Shown here: positions 4,409-25,947 of the stretch, in pieces | How the letters are laid out: each line of letters opens with the position of its first letter | How positions within the stretch are numbered: position 1 is the first letter of the stretch | NCBI GenBank assembly: GCA_021777835.1 | Contig: JAJYDC010000024.1 | Location: 1 to 36,799, forward strand | Direction: 5' to 3' | From: Bacteroidota bacterium | Lineage (GTDB): Bacteria; Bacteroidota; Ignavibacteria; Ignavibacteriales; Ignavibacteriaceae | Length of the DNA: 36,799 bases | Program-made: the position numbers and the translations under genes | Notes under the pieces: model-generated | Databases searched by the model: none | What the model saw: only the letters and a program-made list of their open reading frames with translations | What the model was told of the DNA's origin: nothing

Positions 4409-5557
4409 ATGGAATCTGAAATTTCCTTACCGTCTTCTGTCGGAAAATTTCTTGAGCTGATTAAAGACTCCCAAAGAGGAAGACTTAAGGTATATTTGGG
4501 TCTTGCTGCTGGTGTGGGAAAAACTTTTCGTATGCTGATGGAAGGTCATGAATTAGCAAAGAATCAGATTGATGTTTATGTAGGTTTTGTAGAAACTCAT
4601 GGTAGAAAAGATACTGAAAAATTACTCGAAGGGCTTCCCGCAATAAAGAGAAGAAAGATTTTTTATAAAGGGAAACAGCTTGAGGAAATGGATATTGATA
4701 CTATTCTGCTAAGCAAACCGAAAGTTGTCCTAGTCGATGAATTAGCTCATACAAATGTCCCTGGGTCAAAAAATGAAAAACGCTGGCAGGATGTAATTGA
4801 AATTATAAATAGCGGAATTAGCGTAATTACTACAGTAAATATTCAACACCTTGAAAGTATCAACCGGGAAGTTGAAAAGATTACCGGCGTTGTTATTACT
4901 GAAAGAGTTCCCGATAAGATTATCCAAATGGCTGATGAAGTAGTAAATGTTGATCTTACTATCGATGAATTAATTGACCGGCTTAACGATGGCAAAATAT
5001 ACGACAAAGCTAAGGTCTCAACTGCTCTTAAAAACTTCTTTAGAGAAGATAAACTTCTGCAGTTAAGAGATCTGGCTCTCAAAGAAGTCTCCCGGCAGGT
5101 TGAAAGAAAGATCGCCCGTGAAATTCCTTCTATGCAAAGAGAAAAGGTAAATGCGCTTATAACATGCATTAGCTCTAACGGAAAATCTGCTTCGAAGTTA
5201 ATTAGAAGGTCTTCAAGGCTTGCTTCTTTTTATAATTCAAAATGGTTTGTCATTTATGTACAAACCGATAAAGAAGCTACAGATAAGATTGATACTAAAG
5301 ATCAAAGGCTTTTGATTAATAATTTTAAGCTTGCGACCGAACTTGGCGCAGAGGTTGTCAAATTATCGGCTAATGATAGAGCGAAAGCAATTAAGGACTT
5401 TGCACGGGATAAGGAAGCCGGCTTAATTGTCTTAGGTACCCCTTCGGTCTCTTTGAAAAAAAAATTATTATTCGGAAATATATTCAAGGACTTAACAAAA
5501 CAAGTAGAAAATTTAAACTTAGATATTCTAATTATTTCAAACAATGAAAAAGATTAA
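4409..5557 (+). CDS. kdpD: KdpD-like sensor: KdpD N-terminal domain plus universal-stress domain, no kinase
   Basis: In classical KdpD these domains are the cytosolic N-terminal part that senses potassium and ATP. Here the 382 residues contain only the KdpD domain, with Walker-like GLAAGVGKT (31-39), VETHGRKD (61-68), VDELAHTN (109-116) and NIQHLES, followed by a universal-stress-protein-like alpha/beta domain (about 245-378, with SRLASFYNS and GLIVLGTPS). The four membrane helices and histidine kinase core of E. coli KdpD are absent. The stop codon overlaps the next gene, a full histidine kinase, by 14 bases, so the two are translationally coupled and probably work together. Confidence 0.92.
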   Translation: MESEISLPSSVGKFLELIKDSQRGRLKVYLGLAAGVGKTFRMLMEGHELAKNQIDVYVGFVETHGRKDTEKLLEGLPAIKRRKIFYKGKQLEEMDIDTILLSKPKVVLVDELAHTNVPGSKNEKRWQDVIEIINSGISVITTVNIQHLESINREVEKITGVVITERVPDKIIQMADEVVNVDLTIDELIDRLNDGKIYDKAKVSTALKNFFREDKLLQLRDLALKEVSRQVERKIAREIPSMQREKVNALITCISSNGKSASKLIRRSSRLASFYNSKWFVIYVQTDKEATDKIDTKDQRLLINNFKLATELGAEVVKLSANDRAKAIKDFARDKEAGLIVLGTPSVSLKKKLLFGNIFKDLTKQVENLNLDILIISNNEKD

Positions 5558-7412
5558 AACAAAAATATTAGCAGGAGTACTATTCCTGTTTATAGTGATT
5601 CTAGTACTAAGCGTGCTTGGTATCTTTTTTATAAATAGAATTTCTCGGAGCTCAAAAGGCGCCATTAAAGATAATTATCGCTCGGTTCAATACACCACGA
5701 TGATGACCAAATGCCTTGATACAATGTATAAAATAAAGTTAGAGGAAGTAATATCATCTTCTAAATTTAGTAGTAAGACTGAATTTGACACTGCAAATTT
5801 TATTGCTAGTAATTTAGAATTTAAAAGCAATCTTAGTAAAGAAGCCCATAATATAACAGAAATTGGTGAAGAAGAATTAGTAAATGAATTAGAACGCAAT
5901 TATAATAGATTTTTGCGTGCGATAGGAATATTGGGCCCCGGTTTTACCGCTCTTTCAAAAAGTAATATCAATGAAATTAGTTCCCTCTATGATATAACGC
6001 GCGAAAATATTCTGGAAATATATAGGCTGAATATGAACGCCATTCTTCTCCGCAGCAGCAGAGCAGAAAACACTGCCGGTCAGGTTACTGTCTATATGGC
6101 GATAGTTGCAGCATTCAGCATATTATCAACGTTATTCTTTATATTCAAATTCCCGAGTAAAATTGTTAGTCCTATATCAGAACTTACAGCAAAGATTAAT
6201 GAAATTTCAAACAGAAATTATGAACAGAAATTGGATGTTATCTCAAATGATGAAATGGGAGAGCTAGCCAGAGCTTTCAATGTTATGGTGCAGCGGTTAA
6301 AAGAATATGAATATACAAATCTTGATCAGCTTTTGTTTGAAAAGAAAAGAATGGATGCGATTGTAAAAAATCTTCAGGACGGCGTTATGATTCTTGACGA
6401 AAATAAGAATGTAATACTTGCCAATAATTCTTTAATAAGTCTTACCGGATTGAAAGAAGAAAATGTCCTTAATCGCTATGCTCCGGATATTGCCGCTAGA
6501 AATGATTTAGTAAGAACTATGATCTCAAATCTTATGGCTGAGGAGAGAGGGGAACAATCGGAAGAAATTAAGCCGATTAAAATAATCCTTAACGGCAAAG
6601 AAAATTATTATTCAATTGAGCATATTACTCTTGAGCTTACATCAAGCGGAAGTAATAAGAATAAATTAGCCGGCTATATTATTATGTTGAAAAATGTAAC
6701 TCTTTATCAGGAGAGAGATACAGCTAAAACAAATTTAATCGCTACCGTGTCTCACGAATTGAAAACACCACTATCTTCAATTAACTTGAGCCTGAAACTT
6801 CTCGGTGATGATAGAATCGGTGAAATAAATGAAGAACAAAAAGGATTAATTAATTCTATAAGGCAGCAAAGTACCCGCCTGTCTAAAGTAGTTAACGAAC
6901 TGCTTGATTTTTCACAAGCAGAAACAGGAAATATAAAATTAAAAATAACTGAAATAAGACCGGAAGATATTATTGAACTCGCTGTCGTTGCATTAATGAT
7001 GTTTATATCTGAGAAAAACATTCGCCTCGAAACCTCTATAAGTGAAAACATATCAGCTATAAATGCAGACCTCGAAAAGACTGTCTGGGTACTTGTAAAT
7101 ATTATTAATAATGCAATCAGATATTCCCCCGAAGGCGGAGAAATTACGGTCAACGCTGAAAACGAAAATGGATTTGTCAAATTCACTGTTAAAGACGAAG
7201 GCGCCGGCATATCGCCGGAAGATTGCCAAAAAGTATTTGATAAATTCGTACAAGTTGGAAATAGAAACTCTAAAGGCTCAGGTCTAGGACTCGCGATTTC
7301 CAAAGAATTTGTAGTCGCCCAAGGAGGAAAAATTTGGGTAGAAAGTAAAATAGGAGAGGGAAGTCAGTTCTTCTTCACTCTTCCTATCTCAAGCAAAAAA
7401 AATGGACGCTGA
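5544..7412 (+). CDS. Membrane histidine kinase with HAMP and PAS domains, partner of the KdpD-like protein
   Basis: This 622-residue two-component sensor has a membrane helix at about 8-30, an extracytoplasmic helical region (31-180), a second helix (182-203), a HAMP linker (about 205-255, with DEMGELARAFN), a PAS domain (about 268-385), and a HisKA domain with phospho-acceptor His404 in VSHELKTPLSS. The ATPase domain shows the N box (IINNAIRYSPEGG), DEGAGIS, a VFDKFVQ F box and GSGLGLAISKE. The start ATG lies inside the end of the KdpD-like gene. It probably replaces the kinase half missing from that protein. No response regulator (KdpE or other) is encoded in this window; it may lie before kdpA. 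Confidence 0.93.
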   Translation: MKKIKTKILAGVLFLFIVILVLSVLGIFFINRISRSSKGAIKDNYRSVQYTTMMTKCLDTMYKIKLEEVISSSKFSSKTEFDTANFIASNLEFKSNLSKEAHNITEIGEEELVNELERNYNRFLRAIGILGPGFTALSKSNINEISSLYDITRENILEIYRLNMNAILLRSSRAENTAGQVTVYMAIVAAFSILSTLFFIFKFPSKIVSPISELTAKINEISNRNYEQKLDVISNDEMGELARAFNVMVQRLKEYEYTNLDQLLFEKKRMDAIVKNLQDGVMILDENKNVILANNSLISLTGLKEENVLNRYAPDIAARNDLVRTMISNLMAEERGEQSEEIKPIKIILNGKENYYSIEHITLELTSSGSNKNKLAGYIIMLKNVTLYQERDTAKTNLIATVSHELKTPLSSINLSLKLLGDDRIGEINEEQKGLINSIRQQSTRLSKVVNELLDFSQAETGNIKLKITEIRPEDIIELAVVALMMFISEKNIRLETSISENISAINADLEKTVWVLVNIINNAIRYSPEGGEITVNAENENGFVKFTVKDEGAGISPEDCQKVFDKFVQVGNRNSKGSGLGLAISKEFVVAQGGKIWVESKIGEGSQFFFTLPISSKKNGR

Positions 7413-17057: not shown

Positions 17058-17675
17058 ATGATTCAAAAGAAATTAAAAGTAGGAATTACCGGGAGCATAG
17101 GTTCCGGTAAATCAACTTTTTCAAAGATTATAGCAGATACAGGGTTTAGAGTTATAAATGTTGACGATATTTCTAAAGAATTGTTGGTCTCTGACAAGTT
17201 AATTAAAGAAAAAATTATTGAGTTATTTGGAAAAGAATCATATATCGGCAACGAAGTAAACAAAAAATATCTAGCAGAGAAAGTATTCTCCAATTCAGAG
17301 CAAGTTGCGAAGATCAATTCAATTGTACATCCCGCTGTTATTAAGAAAACTGAGTCGTTGATTCTACGAAATTTAGAAGATGTAAATATTGCTTTTGCCG
17401 AAGCAGCACTTATTTATGAAGCAGGTATGGAAAACATTTTCGATTATGTTATTCTTGTTACAACTAATGAGAAACTAAGATTGGACAGGAAAGTACGTTT
17501 TGATAATTATACAGAAGAGCAATTTTTAAAAAGAAACGAAAATCAAATACCTGACGATGAAAAAAAGAAACGTGCAGATTTTGTAATTGAAAATAGCGGA
17601 TCATTAGAGGAATTGAAATCCAAATGCGGATTTGTCTTAAAAATATTACAGGGACTTATATTGACTAATGAATAA
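17058..17675 (+). CDS. coaE: Dephospho-CoA kinase
   Basis: CoaE catalyses the last step of coenzyme A synthesis, phosphorylating dephospho-CoA with ATP. The 205 residues carry the P-loop GSIGSGKST (12-20), the NVDDISKELL substrate region, IVHPAVIKK and the lid segment RLDRKVRFDNYTEEQFLKR. Its last eight bases overlap the start of pheA, implying coupled translation. Confidence 0.95.
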   Translation: MIQKKLKVGITGSIGSGKSTFSKIIADTGFRVINVDDISKELLVSDKLIKEKIIELFGKESYIGNEVNKKYLAEKVFSNSEQVAKINSIVHPAVIKKTESLILRNLEDVNIAFAEAALIYEAGMENIFDYVILVTTNEKLRLDRKVRFDNYTEEQFLKRNENQIPDDEKKKRADFVIENSGSLEELKSKCGFVLKILQGLILTNE

Positions 17676-18501
17676 AGTTGCTTTCCAAGGTGAAGCCGGC
17701 GCATTCAGCGAAATTGCGGCAAGAAAAATGTTCGGGGAAAAAATTAATGTTTCTCCGTCTTTTTCTTTCGAAGATGTCTTCCTTAAAGTAAAAAACGGCA
17801 GCGTTAATTTCGGAATAATCCCAATTGAGAATTCTTTATATGGAAGTGTTTTTGAAACTTATGACCTTCTACTTAAGTATTCATTAAATATTGTAGGGGA
17901 ATTAAACTTACAAATTAACCATAATTTAATTGCTAAGAATAATTATAAACTATCGGAAATAAAAAAAGTTTACTCACATCCTCAGGCATTAGGGCAATGT
18001 TCCGAATTTCTAAAGAAGATGAAGAATGCAGAAATAATACCTGCATATGATACCGCCGGTTCGGCATTAATGCTGCTAAACAATACGTCGGAACCAACCG
18101 CGGCAATTGCAAGTAAGAATGCCTCAAGAATTTATAATCTTAAAATCTTGAAGTCAGATATACAAAATAATAAGGAAAATTATACAAGATTTTATGCAAT
18201 TAGCAAAAATAAAAGCAAGAAATTATTTAAACATCCGAAATCATCAATTTGTTTTGAACTTAAAAACATACCCGGTGCTTTATTTAAGGCTTTAAGTATC
18301 TTCGCTCTGAAAGAAATTAATCTATTGAAAATCGAATCAAGGCCTATCCCACACAAACCTTTCCAATATATATTTTACATAGATTTCTCAGGTTCTTTGT
18401 TAGATAATAAGGTAAAACAGGCGGTGAAGCACCTTTCTGAATTTTCTCTGAGCATAAAAATACTCGGGACCTACGAAACTGGAAAAATATTTATCAGTTG
18501 A
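17668..18501 (+). CDS. pheA: Prephenate dehydratase, monofunctional
   Basis: It converts prephenate to phenylpyruvate in phenylalanine synthesis. The 277 residues start directly with the dehydratase domain (VAFQGEAGAFSE, FGIIPIENSLYGSV, YSHPQALGQC, NYTRFYAIS) and end in an ACT domain (about 190-270, with ELKNIPGALFKALSIFA and ESRPIPHKPFQY) that should bind phenylalanine for feedback control. There is no N-terminal chorismate mutase, unlike E. coli PheA. A mutase domain is found instead fused to MltG at 20499. The start overlaps the coaE end. Confidence 0.95.
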   Translation: MNKVAFQGEAGAFSEIAARKMFGEKINVSPSFSFEDVFLKVKNGSVNFGIIPIENSLYGSVFETYDLLLKYSLNIVGELNLQINHNLIAKNNYKLSEIKKVYSHPQALGQCSEFLKKMKNAEIIPAYDTAGSALMLLNNTSEPTAAIASKNASRIYNLKILKSDIQNNKENYTRFYAISKNKSKKLFKHPKSSICFELKNIPGALFKALSIFALKEINLLKIESRPIPHKPFQYIFYIDFSGSLLDNKVKQAVKHLSEFSLSIKILGTYETGKIFIS

Positions 18502-18544: not shown

Positions 18545-18568
18545 TATTGACTATTGAAGGAGTATATT

Positions 18569-19468
18569 GTGTCGTTCTTTAACAAAATTATTGTAGCGAT
18601 TGTCCGGCTGATGCCAAAAGCAGTGGTCGGCGTCTTTTCTCGCAAATATATTGCAGGCGAAACTCTTGAAGAAGCAGTTCAACTTGTTAAAAGTCTGAAT
18701 TCAAGAGGCATTTATGCAACTATGGATGTCCTTGGTGAATCAATTAAAACAAACAAGGAAGCAGTTGAAGCAAAAGAAAAATGTTTTGAAGTTCTTGATA
18801 CTATAAATAAAAATAACTTAAAAGCCAATCTCTCTTTAAAGCCGACTCAGATGGGCTTAAATCTTGACGAAAACTTTGCATATGAGCAAATAGAACAAAT
18901 TGTTCAAAAAGCGAAAGGTATAAATAATTTTATCAGACTTGATATGGAAGATTCTCCTTATACTGATAAAACTTTTAATCTTTTAAAAAGGCTGCGAAAA
19001 CAATATGATAATGTTGGTGTTGTAGTACAGGCAAAACTTAAACGCACTTATGAAGATGTTAATGAGTTGAATAAAATTGGAATCAATTATAGACTATGCA
19101 AAGGTATTTATATCGAATCACCTAATATCTCGTATCGCGATAGACAAAAGATCCGTGATCATTATGTGCAAATATTGGAAGCAATTTTTAAGAATGGAAA
19201 TTATGTCGGAATTGCAACGCATGATGAATATTTAATTAATAAAGCGTATGAATTGATTAAGACATTGAATGTTCCCAAGGATAAATTTGAATTTCAAATG
19301 CTTCTAGGCGTTAGAGAAGATTTGCGTGACAAAATTAACGCAGATGGCTATAAAATCAGGATATACGTTCCTTTCGGAAAAGATTGGTATGCTTATTCAG
19401 TAAGACGTTTGCAGGAAAATCCGCAAATTGCAGGATATATATTTAGAAATATTTTTTCGTTTAAGTAA
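18569..19468 (+). CDS. Proline dehydrogenase family protein
   Basis: A FAD-dependent TIM-barrel enzyme oxidising proline to pyrroline-5-carboxylate. The start is set to GTG 18569 (MSFFNKIIVAIVRLMPK), six bases after AAGGAG, giving 299 residues. A TTG at 18554 lies practically at the predicted transcription start and before the ribosome site, so it is unlikely. Family features include LKPTQMGLNLDENFA, FIRLDMEDSPYTD, VVVQAKLKRTYEDV, YRLCKGIYIE, GIATHDEYL, EFQMLLGVRED, IYVPFGKDWYAYS and, near the end, RRLQENPQ. No P5C dehydrogenase domain is fused. tsaD starts within the stop codon (TAATG). Confidence 0.88.
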   Translation: MSFFNKIIVAIVRLMPKAVVGVFSRKYIAGETLEEAVQLVKSLNSRGIYATMDVLGESIKTNKEAVEAKEKCFEVLDTINKNNLKANLSLKPTQMGLNLDENFAYEQIEQIVQKAKGINNFIRLDMEDSPYTDKTFNLLKRLRKQYDNVGVVVQAKLKRTYEDVNELNKIGINYRLCKGIYIESPNISYRDRQKIRDHYVQILEAIFKNGNYVGIATHDEYLINKAYELIKTLNVPKDKFEFQMLLGVREDLRDKINADGYKIRIYVPFGKDWYAYSVRRLQENPQIAGYIFRNIFSFK

Positions 19469-20478
19469 TGAATGTATTAGGAATTGAAAGCTCATGTGAC
19501 GAAACTTCGGTTGCGATAATTTCGGATGATAAATTAACTTCAAATTTAATTTCATCACAGGACTTTCATTCTAAGTATGGTGGTGTTGTACCTGAACTCT
19601 CAAGCCGCGCTCATCTTCAGATAATTATCCCACTAGTAAAGGATGCTCTTACAAAATCAAATTTAGAGCTTAGCGACATCGACTTGATTTGTGCTACTGC
19701 CGGACCTGGATTAATTGGAGCATTATTAGTTGGGTTAACCTTTGCAAAAGGCTTAGCATTTTCTCTGAATAAAACATTTCTTGCTGTTAACCATATAGAA
19801 GGTCATATTTTCTCAGGCTTTTTAATGGAAGAAAAGCCTGAGTTTCCTTTTCTGGCGCTTGTTGTGTCAGGCGGGCATACGCTTTTGCTCTTGGTTAATG
19901 ATTTCATGGATATCAAAAAACTAGGATCTACAGTTGATGATGCTGCAGGTGAGGCATTTGATAAGGTCTCTAAAATGCTTGGACTTGGATATCCTGGCGG
20001 ACCTAAAATACAGAGCCACGCGCAGAATGGGAACGCCGATAAAATAAATTTTCCCATTGCGGATTTGAAAAATTCTTTTAACTTTTCATTTAGCGGATTA
20101 AAGACATCTGTACTTAGACATATCCAAAAAAACTATCAAGGAACGAATATTCCTTTAAGTGATGTTAATGATATTGCGGCTTCTTTTCAAATGGCTGTAG
20201 TAAAAGCCTTAATTAGGAATGCAGAAAAAGCTTTGAGTGAATATGATGTGAATTCTATTTGCCTTGCAGGAGGTGTTGCAGCAAATAAAGCGTTAAGAAA
20301 TGCAGTTATTACGCTCGGCGAAAAGTTCAATAAAAAAGTTATTATTCCAGCAATGGAATATTGCGGAGATAATGCAGCTATGATAGCTTATCGAGGACAA
20401 AAATTATTTGAAAATGACGTAACGTCAACTTTGAATGTAAGCCCTTTCCCCGGATTAAGTGCTGACATATTTTCATAA
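19468..20478 (+). CDS. tsaD: tRNA N6-adenosine threonylcarbamoyltransferase
   Basis: TsaD transfers the threonylcarbamoyl group to A37 of tRNAs reading ANN codons, together with TsaB and TsaE, which are not in this window. The 336 residues show GIESSCDETSVAI, YGGVVPELSSRAH, the metal-binding HIEGH (His109, His113), VSGGHTLL, DDAAGEAFDKV, LGLGYPGGP, LAGGVAANKALR and CGDNAAMIA. Length is normal. It overlaps the proline dehydrogenase stop by one base, so it is translationally coupled to it. Confidence 0.97.
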   Translation: MNVLGIESSCDETSVAIISDDKLTSNLISSQDFHSKYGGVVPELSSRAHLQIIIPLVKDALTKSNLELSDIDLICATAGPGLIGALLVGLTFAKGLAFSLNKTFLAVNHIEGHIFSGFLMEEKPEFPFLALVVSGGHTLLLLVNDFMDIKKLGSTVDDAAGEAFDKVSKMLGLGYPGGPKIQSHAQNGNADKINFPIADLKNSFNFSFSGLKTSVLRHIQKNYQGTNIPLSDVNDIAASFQMAVVKALIRNAEKALSEYDVNSICLAGGVAANKALRNAVITLGEKFNKKVIIPAMEYCGDNAAMIAYRGQKLFENDVTSTLNVSPFPGLSADIFS

Positions 20479-20498: not shown

Positions 20499-21896
20499 AT
20501 GATGGAAAACATTATAAGTAAAATTAAAAACGAGCTTGAAAGTCTTAGTATAGAAGAAAGGAAAGAGATTCTTTTAAAACTCAGAGATAATGTTGACGAT
20601 ATCGATAAAGAGCTTGTACACTTAATTAGTAAAAGAACTTTGCATTCTGTTTTAATTGGGCGAGTTAAGCGCTCAATGAACCTTGCTACATACAATCCGC
20701 AGCGTGAAAAAGAAATTAGTGAACGTATTTCCTCTTTCGTAGAAGAACCTCTTAGCAAGGAGGCATTACTAAGAATTTATGAAAGAATATTGGATGAATC
20801 GCGTGCAATACAGCATGAAGAATTAAATAAAGGAAATATTTTTAACATTTCAGCTAAAAAGATGAAATTAAGTTTTAACAAATTACTATCGCGTAAAGAA
20901 TTATTTATAGTCGCTTTCTTCTTTTTTTTTATCTTATCCATTTTACTCTATAATTTCTTTACCCCCAACTACTATAAAGGCAATTCTCCGGTAGAATTCG
21001 TGGTTCGTAAAGGTGAGACATTAAAGGAAATCTCAGATCAACTTTATTCAAATAAAATAATAGACGGCAAAGTTAAATTTAGAATTGCAGCATTTTTACT
21101 TGGTGCTGAAAGGAGAATTAGACCGGCAAGATATTTTATTCCAAATGGACTTAGCTATGTGGGACTTATCAACTATTTTATGAGCGATAAAGCGGATTTC
21201 CTAAAAACGTTTTTAATTCTTAAAGGTTCGGACATTTCATCAATCGCAAGTAGACTTCAAAGCGAAACCTTAATTGATTCAGCCGCTGTGGTTCATCTTA
21301 GTAAGAATAAAAAATTCTTGGATTCTTTAGGTTTACATGCAAATTCTCTTTTAGGCTATATGCTTCCTGAAAAATATGATATTTATGAAAGAAGTTCCCC
21401 GGAAGAAGCGTTATCCATTATTTACAAAGGATTCCAAAGTTTTTTATCTGATTCGCTTAAGCTAAGAGCAAAAAAACTTGGTTATTCTATTCCGCAAATT
21501 ATCACACTTGCTTCGATCGTTGAAGGCGAGACTAATAAAAAATCTGAAATGCCTCTTATTGCAAGTGTTTACTTAAACCGATTAAAAGCCGGAATGAAAC
21601 TTCAAGCAGATCCAACGGTTGAATTCTTACAGCCTGGTAGATGGAAGCGATTAAGTTATAATGATCTTAAAATAGATTCTCCATATAATACATATGAGCA
21701 TAAAGGTCTTCCGCCCGGACCAATAAATAATCCTGGCAAAAGTGCAATTTTAGCTGTTCTTAGCCCGGCTCATACAAAGTACCTATTCTTTGTAGCTAAT
21801 GGTAAAGGGGGTCATAGTTTTTCAACTAATTATCAGGATCATCTGCAAAATGTTGAACATTATAAATCATGGTTAAACCAATCATCGAAAAATTAA
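20499..21896 (+). CDS. mltG: Chorismate mutase (AroQ type) fused to endolytic transglycosylase MltG
   Basis: One uninterrupted 465-residue frame joins two unrelated enzymes. Residues about 20-110 match AroQ chorismate mutase. Aligned to the E. coli P-protein mutase, the active-site positions are Arg29, Arg46, Lys57, Asn66 (Asp in E. coli), Arg69, Glu70, Ser101 and Gln105, so activity is plausible. After a basic linker comes one membrane helix (about 134-152), then a LysM-like segment (FVVRKGETLKEISDQL) and the MltG/YceG domain, with catalytic Glu342 in LASIVEGE and the conserved LQADPTVEF, SPYNTYEHKGLPPGPI and YLFFVANGKGGHSFS. The mutase should face the cytoplasm and the transglycosylase, which cuts nascent glycan strands, the periplasm. 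The next gene overlaps by 28 bases. Confidence 0.93.
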   Translation: MMENIISKIKNELESLSIEERKEILLKLRDNVDDIDKELVHLISKRTLHSVLIGRVKRSMNLATYNPQREKEISERISSFVEEPLSKEALLRIYERILDESRAIQHEELNKGNIFNISAKKMKLSFNKLLSRKELFIVAFFFFFILSILLYNFFTPNYYKGNSPVEFVVRKGETLKEISDQLYSNKIIDGKVKFRIAAFLLGAERRIRPARYFIPNGLSYVGLINYFMSDKADFLKTFLILKGSDISSIASRLQSETLIDSAAVVHLSKNKKFLDSLGLHANSLLGYMLPEKYDIYERSSPEEALSIIYKGFQSFLSDSLKLRAKKLGYSIPQIITLASIVEGETNKKSEMPLIASVYLNRLKAGMKLQADPTVEFLQPGRWKRLSYNDLKIDSPYNTYEHKGLPPGPINNPGKSAILAVLSPAHTKYLFFVANGKGGHSFSTNYQDHLQNVEHYKSWLNQSSKN

Positions 21897-23563
21897 AATA
21901 TCTTGCATTAGTCTGTTTTCTCTTAATTGAATGGCAATGCGCAAATCAACTTCCCCCTGGTGGCGGCAGTATTGATTTAGTCCCTCCAAAAATTGAAACA
22001 ACATATCCTTCTAATGGAACTACCAATTTTGTTGGGGATTATGTTCAATTTGATTTCTCCAAATATGTTCAAAAAAGGACTTTACAAGATGCTATCTTTA
22101 TTTCACCTGCAATTGAAGGCGATTTGAATTATGACTGGAGCGGTACTTCTGTAAGAATTTATTTCCCGGCTAAGCTAAAGATAAATACAACTTATGTAAT
22201 AAGTGTCGGTACTGATTTGGTAGATTATAATAATGGCAATCACATGGCTCAAGCTTATACATTAACCTTTTCTACCGGAAGCAAAATTGATAAGGGAGAA
22301 ATTGAAGGGAAAGTATACTCGGATAACCCTCAAGGGGTTCTAATGTATACATATTTAGTAGGCGATAGTGCTATTAATCCGATGATTAGAAAACCGGATT
22401 ATGTATCTCAAGCAGGAGTTGATGGCTCATTTAAATTGTTAGGCTTAGCACCCGGGGTTTATAGAGTTTTTGCTGTAGTTGATAAGAGCCATACTCTTTT
22501 ATATCAACCTGATCAAGATAAAATCGGGATTCCTTTCAGCGATGTTCACCTTTCAGAATCGGACACTCTGGCTGTTGGTGTAAATTTCTTTTTAACCAAC
22601 CTTGATACTGTAAAACCGCGTCTTCAAAATGCCGTAATGACGGACGCAAACCATATCTTGGTTGATTTTACAAGGGACATTGATACATCAATAATTCATT
22701 CGCATAATTTCTTTATTTATGACTCAACGTTAAATAAAAAATTTATTCCGGTATATGCTTATCAAGGCAATAAAAAGCCGAATGAAATTGTATTAGTTAC
22801 TAATTATACTCCAAAACTAAAAGATGAATATTTCTTAATTGCGAAAACAATAGAAGATAAACTTGGGAATATTTATAGAAATGATTTTTCATCTCTTACT
22901 GTTAGCAATAAACCGGATACCACACAACCCGGAATATATCGGACTGATCCTCCGGTTAACTCAAGCCAAGCAGACGTTGAAAACCAAAAAATATCTTTTT
23001 ATATAAATGACGCTATTGATAGTAGTACCGCAAAAACAGGGATCACATTTACTGATACTTCTCATGTTAATATTCCATTCGTAATACATTTTTATGATGA
23101 TGCTTCGTTTTACATTTCCCCCTTGAAAAAGCTGCAAACAAGTACTGAGTATTTGATAAAAATTAATTTAGATAAATTAAAAAATATAATAGGGAAGTCA
23201 TATGACTCGGTATATACATATAAATTTTTTACAATTAATGGATTAGATTTTACGGGAGCTACAGGCAAGATTCTTAACGCTAATGATGTAATTAATCCCG
23301 TACTTGTTTTGCAAGGAATTGATAAAGATAAATTATCCTACTACAGAAAGCCCGCAATGGATATGAAATTTAATTTTAATAGAATACAACCCGGTAAGTA
23401 TTTATTGTGGTGTTATGAAGATGCAGACAGCAATAGCACCTATACTTATGGTAAAGTTCTGCCATTTAAGCCTTCTGAAAAATTCTCTTTCTATCCGGAT
23501 ACTTTAAACTTGAGGCCGCGATGGACCGTGACTGGTGTAAATTTCATGTATAAAGAAAAATAA
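21869..23563 (+). CDS. Ig-like domain lipoprotein of the FCB type
   Basis: A 564-residue exported protein. The N terminus (KLKYLALVCFLLIEWQ) is a signal peptide followed by Cys24, and ANQLPPGGGSIDLVPP is the proline/glycine stretch typical of Bacteroidota lipoproteins of this family. A bacterial Ig-like domain follows (about 40-135, with PPKIETTYPSNGTTNF and YVISVGTDLVD). A carboxypeptidase-regulatory-like fold (EGKVYSDNP, FKLLGLAPGVYRVFAV) and further Ig-like repeats come next. The lipobox (EWQC) is loose. The start codon lies inside the MltG gene, so the pair is co-translated. Specific function is unknown; an envelope role is inferred. Confidence 0.82.
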   Translation: MVKPIIEKLKYLALVCFLLIEWQCANQLPPGGGSIDLVPPKIETTYPSNGTTNFVGDYVQFDFSKYVQKRTLQDAIFISPAIEGDLNYDWSGTSVRIYFPAKLKINTTYVISVGTDLVDYNNGNHMAQAYTLTFSTGSKIDKGEIEGKVYSDNPQGVLMYTYLVGDSAINPMIRKPDYVSQAGVDGSFKLLGLAPGVYRVFAVVDKSHTLLYQPDQDKIGIPFSDVHLSESDTLAVGVNFFLTNLDTVKPRLQNAVMTDANHILVDFTRDIDTSIIHSHNFFIYDSTLNKKFIPVYAYQGNKKPNEIVLVTNYTPKLKDEYFLIAKTIEDKLGNIYRNDFSSLTVSNKPDTTQPGIYRTDPPVNSSQADVENQKISFYINDAIDSSTAKTGITFTDTSHVNIPFVIHFYDDASFYISPLKKLQTSTEYLIKINLDKLKNIIGKSYDSVYTYKFFTINGLDFTGATGKILNANDVINPVLVLQGIDKDKLSYYRKPAMDMKFNFNRIQPGKYLLWCYEDADSNSTYTYGKVLPFKPSEKFSFYPDTLNLRPRWTVTGVNFMYKEK

Positions 23564-24993: not shown

Positions 24994-25947
24994 ATGAGAA
25001 ATGTATTTAAAACAGCGTATCTGACAATCTTTGTATTTACCATATTAATGATATGCGCTTCCATAAACAATTCGATAGCAAAAACAAAATTAGGGCATAA
25101 ATATTATTCCAACCAATCAGATATTAGATCAAGTAGCAACAAAATATTAACAGCAAATATTGAACATATGGGATTCAACGTTAAGAATCCTGTTGCGGTT
25201 GCAGAATGGTATATAAAAAATCTTGGAATGAAACTTGTCCGGAAAGGAACAGCCCCTCTTTTTGTCACCTTTATTTCGGATAAGGGAAACCACATGATGA
25301 TGGAATTTTATAATAAAGAGAAATTCCCTAAGCTTGATTTCTCAACAATTAATTATATGTCCTTTCATTTTGCTTTTATGGTTGACAGTATTAATACTGT
25401 GGAGAAAAGACTGCTTAAAAACGGAGCCACCTTAGTTGAAGGAATTTCCCAGACTCCGGCCGGCGACAAAGTATTAATGCTGCGCGATCCATGGGGTATG
25501 CCGCTTCAACTTGTAGAACGCATTGAACCTATGCTGAAATTTACTAATATTCGCCCAGAGCATTTCGCTACAAATACACCCGATGCACAAGCAAAAGCTA
25601 ATTGGTATTCCGAAAATTTAGGAATGAAAATATTCCGGCAAGGAGGAGCTCCTGATTTTGGGTCTTTTGTATCAGACTCTGAAAATGATATGATGCTGGA
25701 GATTTATCAAAAGAAAAATTATCCAATGTTAGATTATAAAGTTATTAGCCCAGTCTCTATTCATTTAGCCTTTAAAGTAAATAATGTTGAGCTTGTAAAG
25801 GAGAAACTAGTTGCCGCAGGCGCTGACCTAGTGGATGATATCGCTAAATCGAAATCTGGTGACAAAGTCCTTGTATTGAGAGACCCATGGGGATTTCCGA
25901 TTCAGTTTATTCAAAGAGTAATTCAGTTGAATGGAAAAACAAAGTAG
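24994..25947 (+). CDS. Exported tandem VOC (glyoxalase-fold) protein
   Basis: The 317 residues begin with a signal peptide (about 5-29) and hold two copies of the vicinal-oxygen-chelate fold (about 52-178 and 185-312). Each copy shows the same landmarks: AEWYIKNLGMKLVRKG versus ANWYSENLGMKIFRQG, NHMMMEFY versus NDMMLEIY, FHFAFMV versus IHLAFKV, and VLMLRDPWGMPLQ versus VLVLRDPWGFPIQ. Possible metal ligands in the first copy are His58, Glu104 and His125. Dioxygenase, glyoxalase and binding functions all use this fold, so the reaction is unknown. Export of such a protein is uncommon. It lies 22 bases after the permease gene. Confidence 0.85.
   Translation: MRNVFKTAYLTIFVFTILMICASINNSIAKTKLGHKYYSNQSDIRSSSNKILTANIEHMGFNVKNPVAVAEWYIKNLGMKLVRKGTAPLFVTFISDKGNHMMMEFYNKEKFPKLDFSTINYMSFHFAFMVDSINTVEKRLLKNGATLVEGISQTPAGDKVLMLRDPWGMPLQLVERIEPMLKFTNIRPEHFATNTPDAQAKANWYSENLGMKIFRQGGAPDFGSFVSDSENDMMLEIYQKKNYPMLDYKVISPVSIHLAFKVNNVELVKEKLVAAGADLVDDIAKSKSGDKVLVLRDPWGFPIQFIQRVIQLNGKTK

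Follow-up and report, generated by a model that had tools for sequence, protein, structure and literature searches.

A single open reading frame joins an AroQ-type chorismate mutase domain to the transglycosylase MltG in Ignavibacteriaceae

The window analyzed here, a 36,799-nucleotide stretch of contig JAJYDC010000024.1 from a member of the Ignavibacteriaceae (assembly GCA_021777835.1), contains a gene in which an AroQ-type chorismate mutase (CM) domain and the endolytic transglycosylase MltG (YceG) are encoded in one open frame. The product is predicted to be a single-pass membrane protein with its N terminus in the cytosol, and its head is the only CM detected in the genome. The fused CM most likely makes the prephenate of the cell while tethered to the inner membrane. 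We think it probable that the protein performs two independent jobs, having been born of an old gene pair and tolerated by virtue of the cytosolic tail of MltG. The enzyme families are known, and it is their combination across the membrane, as the only detected CM and as one form of an old gene pair, that is undescribed in the searchable literature.

Architecture and active sites of the fusion protein

The gene is open from ATG to stop over 465 codons, without an in-frame stop, and both of its Pfam domains are complete (Table 1). The head matches CM_2 (PF01817) at residues 28 to 106 with an E value of 7.1e-18 and 65.1 bits against a cut-off of 27, covering positions 1 to 80 of the 80 in the profile, a significant outcome for the AroQ search proposed in the initial annotation. 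Residues 167 to 453 match YceG (PF02618; E = 2.9e-76; 257 bits against a cut-off of 32.4), and TIGR00247 scores 214.1 bits for the MltG part against a cut-off of 103.4. The initial annotation had described an AroQ-type CM fused in a single frame to a membrane-anchored MltG, and that description stands. Between the two domains, 19-residue hydropathy windows of up to 2.56 mark a transmembrane segment at about residues 132 to 154, with a net charge of +5 on its N-terminal side (residues 115 to 134) and +1 after it; the MltG domain is expected to be periplasmic. N termini similar to the short extension ahead of the CM domain are found on separate AroQ proteins of relatives, such as those of genomes G029 and G025 (numbers prefixed f, g, G, and L are our codes for families, genera, genomes, and loci).

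Table 1. Coordinates of the fusion gene, its parts, and its neighbors in the window
Feature	Position	Strand	Remarks
pheA	17668..18501	+	Prephenate dehydratase and ACT, without CM domain; same gene string
Proline dehydrogenase gene	18554..19468	+	Frequent neighbor
tsaD	19468..20478	+	Directly upstream; 20-bp gap to the fusion gene
CM-MltG fusion gene	20499..21896	+	465 aa; single open frame; Pfam CM_2 and YceG; model and fold matches
N-terminal CM extension, residues 1-24	20499..20570	+	Model helix 2-15
AroQ-type CM domain, residues 28-106	20580..20816	+	Profile, alignment, fold
Linker, residues 107-131	20817..20891	+	K/R-rich before the membrane, variable; contains M122
Transmembrane helix, residues 132-154	20892..20960	+	Hydropathy; model helix 132-154
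MltG (YceG) endolytic transglycosylase domain, residues 167-453	20997..21857	+	Pfam, TIGR00247
Codon of E344	21528..21530	+	Equivalent of E. coli MltG catalytic E218, by alignment to 2r1f
Big_5 protein gene	21869..23563	+	Directly downstream; overlaps the fusion gene by 28 bp

An AlphaFold2 model built from a 13-row alignment (mean pLDDT, 82.5) has three AroQ helices (residues 18 to 59, 67 to 78, and 87 to 111) followed by the linker, the membrane helix, and the MltG fold; pLDDT falls below 50 at linker residues 118 to 124, and the MltG stretch from 369 to 408 is of low confidence. Model residues 22 to 111 superpose on solved CMs (5j6f, Z 11.0 and rmsd 1.2 Å over 90 residues; 1ecm, Z 10.2) and the MltG part on solved MltG structures (8yoa, Z 19.4 and rmsd 4.9; 2r1f, Z 17.9 and rmsd 5.1), these scores being a second look at Foldseek's own matches. 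The head has the three-helix AroQ fold, both in the model and in its match to 5j6f.

In the alignment, R29, R46, K57, N66, R69, E70, S101, and Q105 fall on E. coli R11, R28, K39, D48, R51, E52, S84, and Q88, which we take to be the CM active site; seven catalytic positions are identical, and the D48 position is N66. All of these residues had been placed correctly in the initial annotation, which called them kept or conservatively changed. The equivalents of R11, R28, K39, R51, E52, and Q88 are invariant in all 22 aligned order-level fusions; 21 of these have S at the S84 equivalent and one has T, and the D48 equivalent is N in 17 of them and S in the other 5. That alignment also has 26 separate CMs linked to mltG, of which the one from G062 is degenerate, and position 84 is A in G025 and F in G059. 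The 20 class-level linked CMs that were read all keep R, R, K, R, and E. Eighteen of them have S at position 84, the others being one T and one V, and 19 share with yeast CM an E at position 88. The exception at position 88 is the mltG-linked CM of G171 (L183), which combines V at the S84 position with P at the Q88 position and may be inactive.

The catalytic residue of the MltG part had been given as Glu342, and here a correction is needed: E344 is the residue that aligns with E218 of E. coli MltG (the residue number being the chain index of 2r1f plus 70), and it is shared by all 15 fusions that were aligned. Position 342, in contrast, carries Q or D in 3 rows of the 13-row alignment. The structure 2r1f is that of E. 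coli MltG, with the molecule name "Predicted aminodeoxychorismate lyase." According to the accessible text of PMC8135044, the E218Q form of E. coli MltG is inactive.

A head that is dead, or a non-CM relative such as an isochorismate-pyruvate lyase, kept for dimerization or as a scaffold, would agree with the fold that it shares with PchB-type isochorismate-pyruvate lyases (Z about 9). It would also agree with scores that lie under every NCBIfam CM equivalog cut-off listed (at best 46.8 bits for the whole protein and 50.4 for the head alone, against 69.55 for TIGR01807, CM_P2), so that the head is not filed under a named CM subtype. We consider such a head very improbable, however: the CM catalytic positions are kept, the isochorismate lyase model reaches 15.4 bits (E = 0.015) versus 50.4 bits for the best CM model, and the genome has no other CM although prephenate dehydratase and prephenate dehydrogenase are both present. 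The cytosolic head is very likely an active and dimeric AroQ-type CM. AroQ enzymes usually dimerize, and in E. coli CM R11 is donated by the other subunit; the invariant R29, its equivalent, suggests an intertwined homodimer.

The fusion is under purifying selection. In the three genus pairs for which it could be computed, dN/dS is 0.022 to 0.024 for the CM and 0.029 to 0.052 for MltG, these ratios being rough, as most pairs have a high or saturated dS, and CM identity exceeds MltG identity in all nine genus pairs. Linker dN/dS is above that of both domains in the two pairs with all three values; in the pair G000-G004, it is below that of MltG (0.134 against 0.175). The linker varies in length and sequence in the alignments and is partly disordered in the model, which speaks against a tight mechanical coupling of the two activities. 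An earlier proposal, that chorismate or amino acid binding tunes glycan-strand length, is left unsupported by a linker of this kind.

Chorismate mutase content of the genomes

The genome (3.64 Mb in 95 contigs, 98.4% complete) has one CM_2 match and one YceG match, both in the fusion gene. The check for another CM that the initial annotation had advised thus gave no second CM_2 match and no AroH-type CM (CM_1) even at E <= 10, in profile searches of a draft genome that a CM of a new type would escape. A CM_2 match is present in 55 of the 59 genomes examined (this one included), and the 18 fused genomes among the 59 have exactly one each, the fused one; eight of the 12 genus members that carry the fusion reach a completeness of 95% or more. 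The nearby pheA does lack a mutase domain, as had been noted, with prephenate dehydratase (PDT) and ACT as its only domains in profile scans. There are three matches to PF00793 (the DAHP synthase family, which we take to cover KDO-8-P synthase as well), and a prephenate dehydrogenase gene adjoins one of them. Five scanned CM proteins of fusion-free relatives are DAHPS-CM, CM-PDT, or CM-PDT-DAHPS fusions.

Because the fused CM is the sole CM_2 protein, no AroH-type enzyme was matched, the PDT is without a CM, and relatives show this pattern of CM proteins, the fused CM most likely feeds phenylalanine and tyrosine synthesis. The head would supply prephenate to the stand-alone PDT encoded by pheA and to the prephenate dehydrogenase encoded elsewhere. 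Supply of prephenate from the inner face of the membrane, as first proposed from the window, is thereby supported, the fused CM being the only one detected in a nearly complete genome. Annotation that looks for a stand-alone CM or for PheA- or TyrA-type fusions would call such a host unable to make phenylalanine or tyrosine.

Other arrangements were seen in the wider set of genomes. Three-part CM-PDT-DAHP synthase frames of 675 and 702 amino acids occur at L006 and L011 (G015 and G056), with domain scans cut by the locus ends. Seventy of 139 genomes in a class sample, many of them near complete, have no CM_2 match, nor do G013 and G014 of family f1, both 99% complete. In families f13, f14, and f20 (G182, G184, G209, G254, G260, and others), CM_2 lies in non-MltG frames of about 446 to 461 amino acids, and MltG is encoded elsewhere.

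Spread and history of the aroQ-mltG pair

The fusion is present in 12 of 13 genus genomes, including the one studied here; in the thirteenth, G011 (89% complete), neither domain is matched. Across the order, at least 22 of 164 genomes carry it in a single frame, all of them verified on their sequences: 12 in genus g1, nine in the family f1 genera g7, g8, g15, g16, g17, g22, and g45, and one in family f3. Presence in close relatives, a check named in the initial annotation, is thus well borne out, and the frameshift or assembly join about which it had cautioned is absent, since the same single-frame fusion recurs through the genus. Contig ends truncate the fused genes of G002 and G003, and the G009 frame (L034) has no internal stop on reading, though the search row counted one TAA; G024 and G093, with a stop between the halves, are counted as separate. 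An artifact of assembly or annotation has next to no chance of explaining the gene: the frame has no stop within it, and recurrence in independent assemblies, in two further families as well as in the order, refutes it.

Of the 69 genomes with CM_2 in the 139-genome class sample, 38 have the CM directly before mltG and on its strand (14 fused and 24 separate), and the other 31 have a CM that is not adjacent to mltG; linkage was counted by hand from coordinates, and the sequence was read to confirm 8 of the 14 fusions. Fusions beyond the order are in families f10 (8 genomes) and f18 (5), and separate pairs are in families f1, f5, f7, f10, f11, and f19. A class search of 323 genomes at E <= 1e-150, a cut-off that was too strict, gave no fusion outside the order, and fusions there were found later. 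In a 395-genome phylum sample searched at E <= 1e-110, which misses looser pairs, matches running from CM into MltG, interrupted by at least one stop between the two, came from 47 genomes beyond the class (families f35, f37, f51, f54, and f62), and the 19 of these loci that were fetched all have a separate aroQ just upstream of mltG. The fusion is one state of an old aroQ-mltG gene pair reaching well beyond the order. An mltG gene without a CM within 1.5 kb upstream is found at 32 of 80 loci.

Several loci show further variations on the pair. In family f37 (L204-L208, L210-L213, L219-L221, and L223), separate aroQ and mltG genes share one frame, parted by a stop and a few codons, in 13 of 13 loci read, from two genera. 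Read-through was considered there and rejected: the stop type varies (TAA, TGA, and TAG) and an ATG lies within a few codons in most of those loci, so that these are ordinary adjacent genes. A short remnant upstream of mltG at L085 (G062) aligns mainly with the CM end (score, 7.7; E = 0.59) and is probably a decayed aroQ. Extra domains on the long MltG frames of f4, f6, and f16 were discounted, as the stretch looks like out-of-gene translation; the N-terminal extension of the f8 MltG frames looks genuine and is no CM.

Within the order, most of 80 loci show the gene order proline dehydrogenase-tsaD-(aroQ)-mltG-Big_5, many of the stretches ending early. In the window, pheA sits between coaE and the proline dehydrogenase gene. 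It is in the string at 15 of 17 fused loci (the window and 14 of the 16 others, the exceptions being G026 and G044), at 4 of 14 separate loci, and at none of 15 loci without a nearby CM; these rows are related by descent, and the counts are not a statistical test. At the class level, tsaD is upstream of aroQ-mltG in 20 of 20 linked loci, and a tsaD-(trpA)-aroQ-mltG string recurs: trpA lies between tsaD and aroQ in five scanned loci (families f10, f18, f19, and f5), and the tsaD-aroQ spacing is too short for it in G167, G171, G186, G193, G211, and G236. The neighboring pheA and trpA point to amino acid synthesis as the likely job of the CM. A pabC-mltG neighborhood presumably exists in E. coli.

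In a 65-row tree of CM plus MltG, 11 changes between the fused and separate states are required (10 to 11 in bootstrap trees), and at least 5 are forced by well-supported branches. Trees of MltG only require 9 changes of the fused label, at least 3 of them forced, in the order (80 rows) and 12, at least 6 of them forced, in a quick tree of the class set (108 rows). A single clade of all fusions is rejected (p-AU = 8.5e-55), as is one clade of the f1 and f3 fusions (p-AU = 1.0e-40). The two genes have merged or split repeatedly, at least five times, and each change may have run in either direction. In 10 of 39 separate loci, mltG has a candidate start that would give the two genes a 4-base overlap at the aroQ stop. 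The inter-domain spacing is alike in fused and separate loci (about 105 to 235 bases in most), for which reason a programmed frameshift at the split junctions was considered; it was rejected, as ordinary candidate starts lie close to the aroQ stop, overlapping it or a few bases after it.

In a comparison of junctions along the string, CM-MltG is fused in 29 of 88 loci versus 0 of 67 for proline dehydrogenase-TsaD, 0 of 68 for TsaD-CM, 0 of 34 for TsaD-MltG, and 0 of 87 for MltG-Big_5, in loci partly chosen for holding the fusion and with a topology that would hinder fusion of MltG to Big_5. If adjacency joined genes as a neutral accident and nothing more, fusions might have been expected at the other junctions as well; the contrast is suggestive only and leaves room for a benefit of fusion.

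Two activities in one membrane protein

Under the reading of two independent jobs, which we favor, the CM head would work in the cytosol, one helix would span the inner membrane, and the periplasmic MltG part would cut new glycan strands, the two activities proceeding independently and presumably without cross-talk. The fusion would have arisen because aroQ and mltG are old end-to-end neighbors and because the N terminus of MltG is in the cytosol. A small change would suffice to join genes that lie end to end, in part with overlapping ends, and an active enzyme could sit on the cytosolic tail of MltG, which would make the fusion harmless. As side effects, the CM would be membrane bound and present 1:1 with MltG, and MltG molecules would be paired if AroQ dimerizes as usual; coexpression at 1:1 or membrane placement may be benefits.

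The repetition of fusion at only one of the five junctions and the linkage of the two genes across families would also fit a regulatory device, in which the AroQ head tunes MltG cutting to the aromatic supply, either through dimerization or through a bound ligand (chorismate, prephenate, or an amino acid). The invariant R11 equivalent would then imply that MltG is paired, and the accessible text of PMC12369325 reports that the cytosolic segment of Enterococcus faecalis MltG is phosphorylated under wall stress and that this bears on ceftriaxone resistance. We regard such a device as unlikely, given the variable and partly disordered linker and the retention of catalytic residues in a head that is not a degenerate sensor. 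A Pfam scan of the fusion protein gave neither ACT nor any other regulatory domain, the two proteins are separate in 24 of the 38 linked class-sample genomes, and mltG genes without a nearby upstream CM are common.

A related proposal, that aromatic synthesis and strand cutting are physically coupled, with an AroQ dimer that senses chorismate or prephenate flux or pairs MltG and so sets strand length, seems to us rather unlikely. If it were true, the conserved and repeatedly fused aroQ-mltG pair would be its genomic trace. The fusion is a candidate for a connection between primary metabolism and the synthesis of the wall. The benefit might instead be one of place, the CM being held near a membrane user of chorismate or prephenate (e.g., in quinone or aromatic biosynthesis) with MltG as a mere anchor. 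The sole CM is anchored in all 18 fused genomes and the fused state is not one clade, as this would have it, but a separate AroQ is the commoner linked state, and we find the anchor proposal quite improbable. The natural fused and separate pairs allow tests of what gene fusion is for.

To our knowledge, known CM fusions join enzymes of one pathway. PheA (CM-PDT), TyrA (CM-PDH), and DAHPS-CM resemble the protein described here in having the same CM fold and active site and a cytosolic CM joined to a second enzyme; their partners are shikimate or aromatic enzymes, whereas MltG is an unrelated periplasmic wall enzyme across the membrane. Exported CM-cyclohexadienyl dehydratase fusions are likewise rare and outside the usual set of CM fusions, according to the accessible part of PMC10520331. 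As described there, they differ from CM-MltG in being of the AroQ-gamma type, exported, joined to a same-pathway partner, and not the housekeeping CM; another CM is present in each of the nine hosts, and the authors found no catalytic gain from tethering.

The MltG (YceG) proteins of E. coli and Bacillus subtilis, as presented in the available text of PMC8135044, share the transmembrane helix, the YceG domain, and the catalytic Glu with the fusion, which differs from them in having a folded enzyme on the cytosolic side. An extra N-terminal cytosolic segment is also described for MltG of E. faecalis and Streptococcus pneumoniae in the accessible portions of PMC12369325 and PMC8135044; that of E. 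faecalis is predicted to be disordered and is given no known function in the former, in contrast to the folded AroQ enzyme here. In the open-license PMC literature, no paper on a link between CM and MltG/YceG was found, in keeping with the initial annotation, which knew of no described link between the two activities. PMC7481392, in its accessible part, names both only by coincidence in a table, and neither YceG nor AroQ appears in the main text of the fusion survey PMC4921024.

Some smaller features of the window are recorded here. M122 (20862-20864), a Met between the head and the transmembrane helix, is kept in 6 of 7 aligned genus members, is absent from the six other fused rows of the 13-row alignment, and lies approximately where separate mltG genes may start; it is a candidate internal start, from which MltG might also be made alone. 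Farther upstream, a KdpD sensor domain and a HAMP-PAS histidine kinase are encoded by two overlapping genes (4409-5557 and 5544-7412). Downstream, a gene at 24994-25947, directly after a permease gene, encodes a protein with two glyoxalase-type domains.
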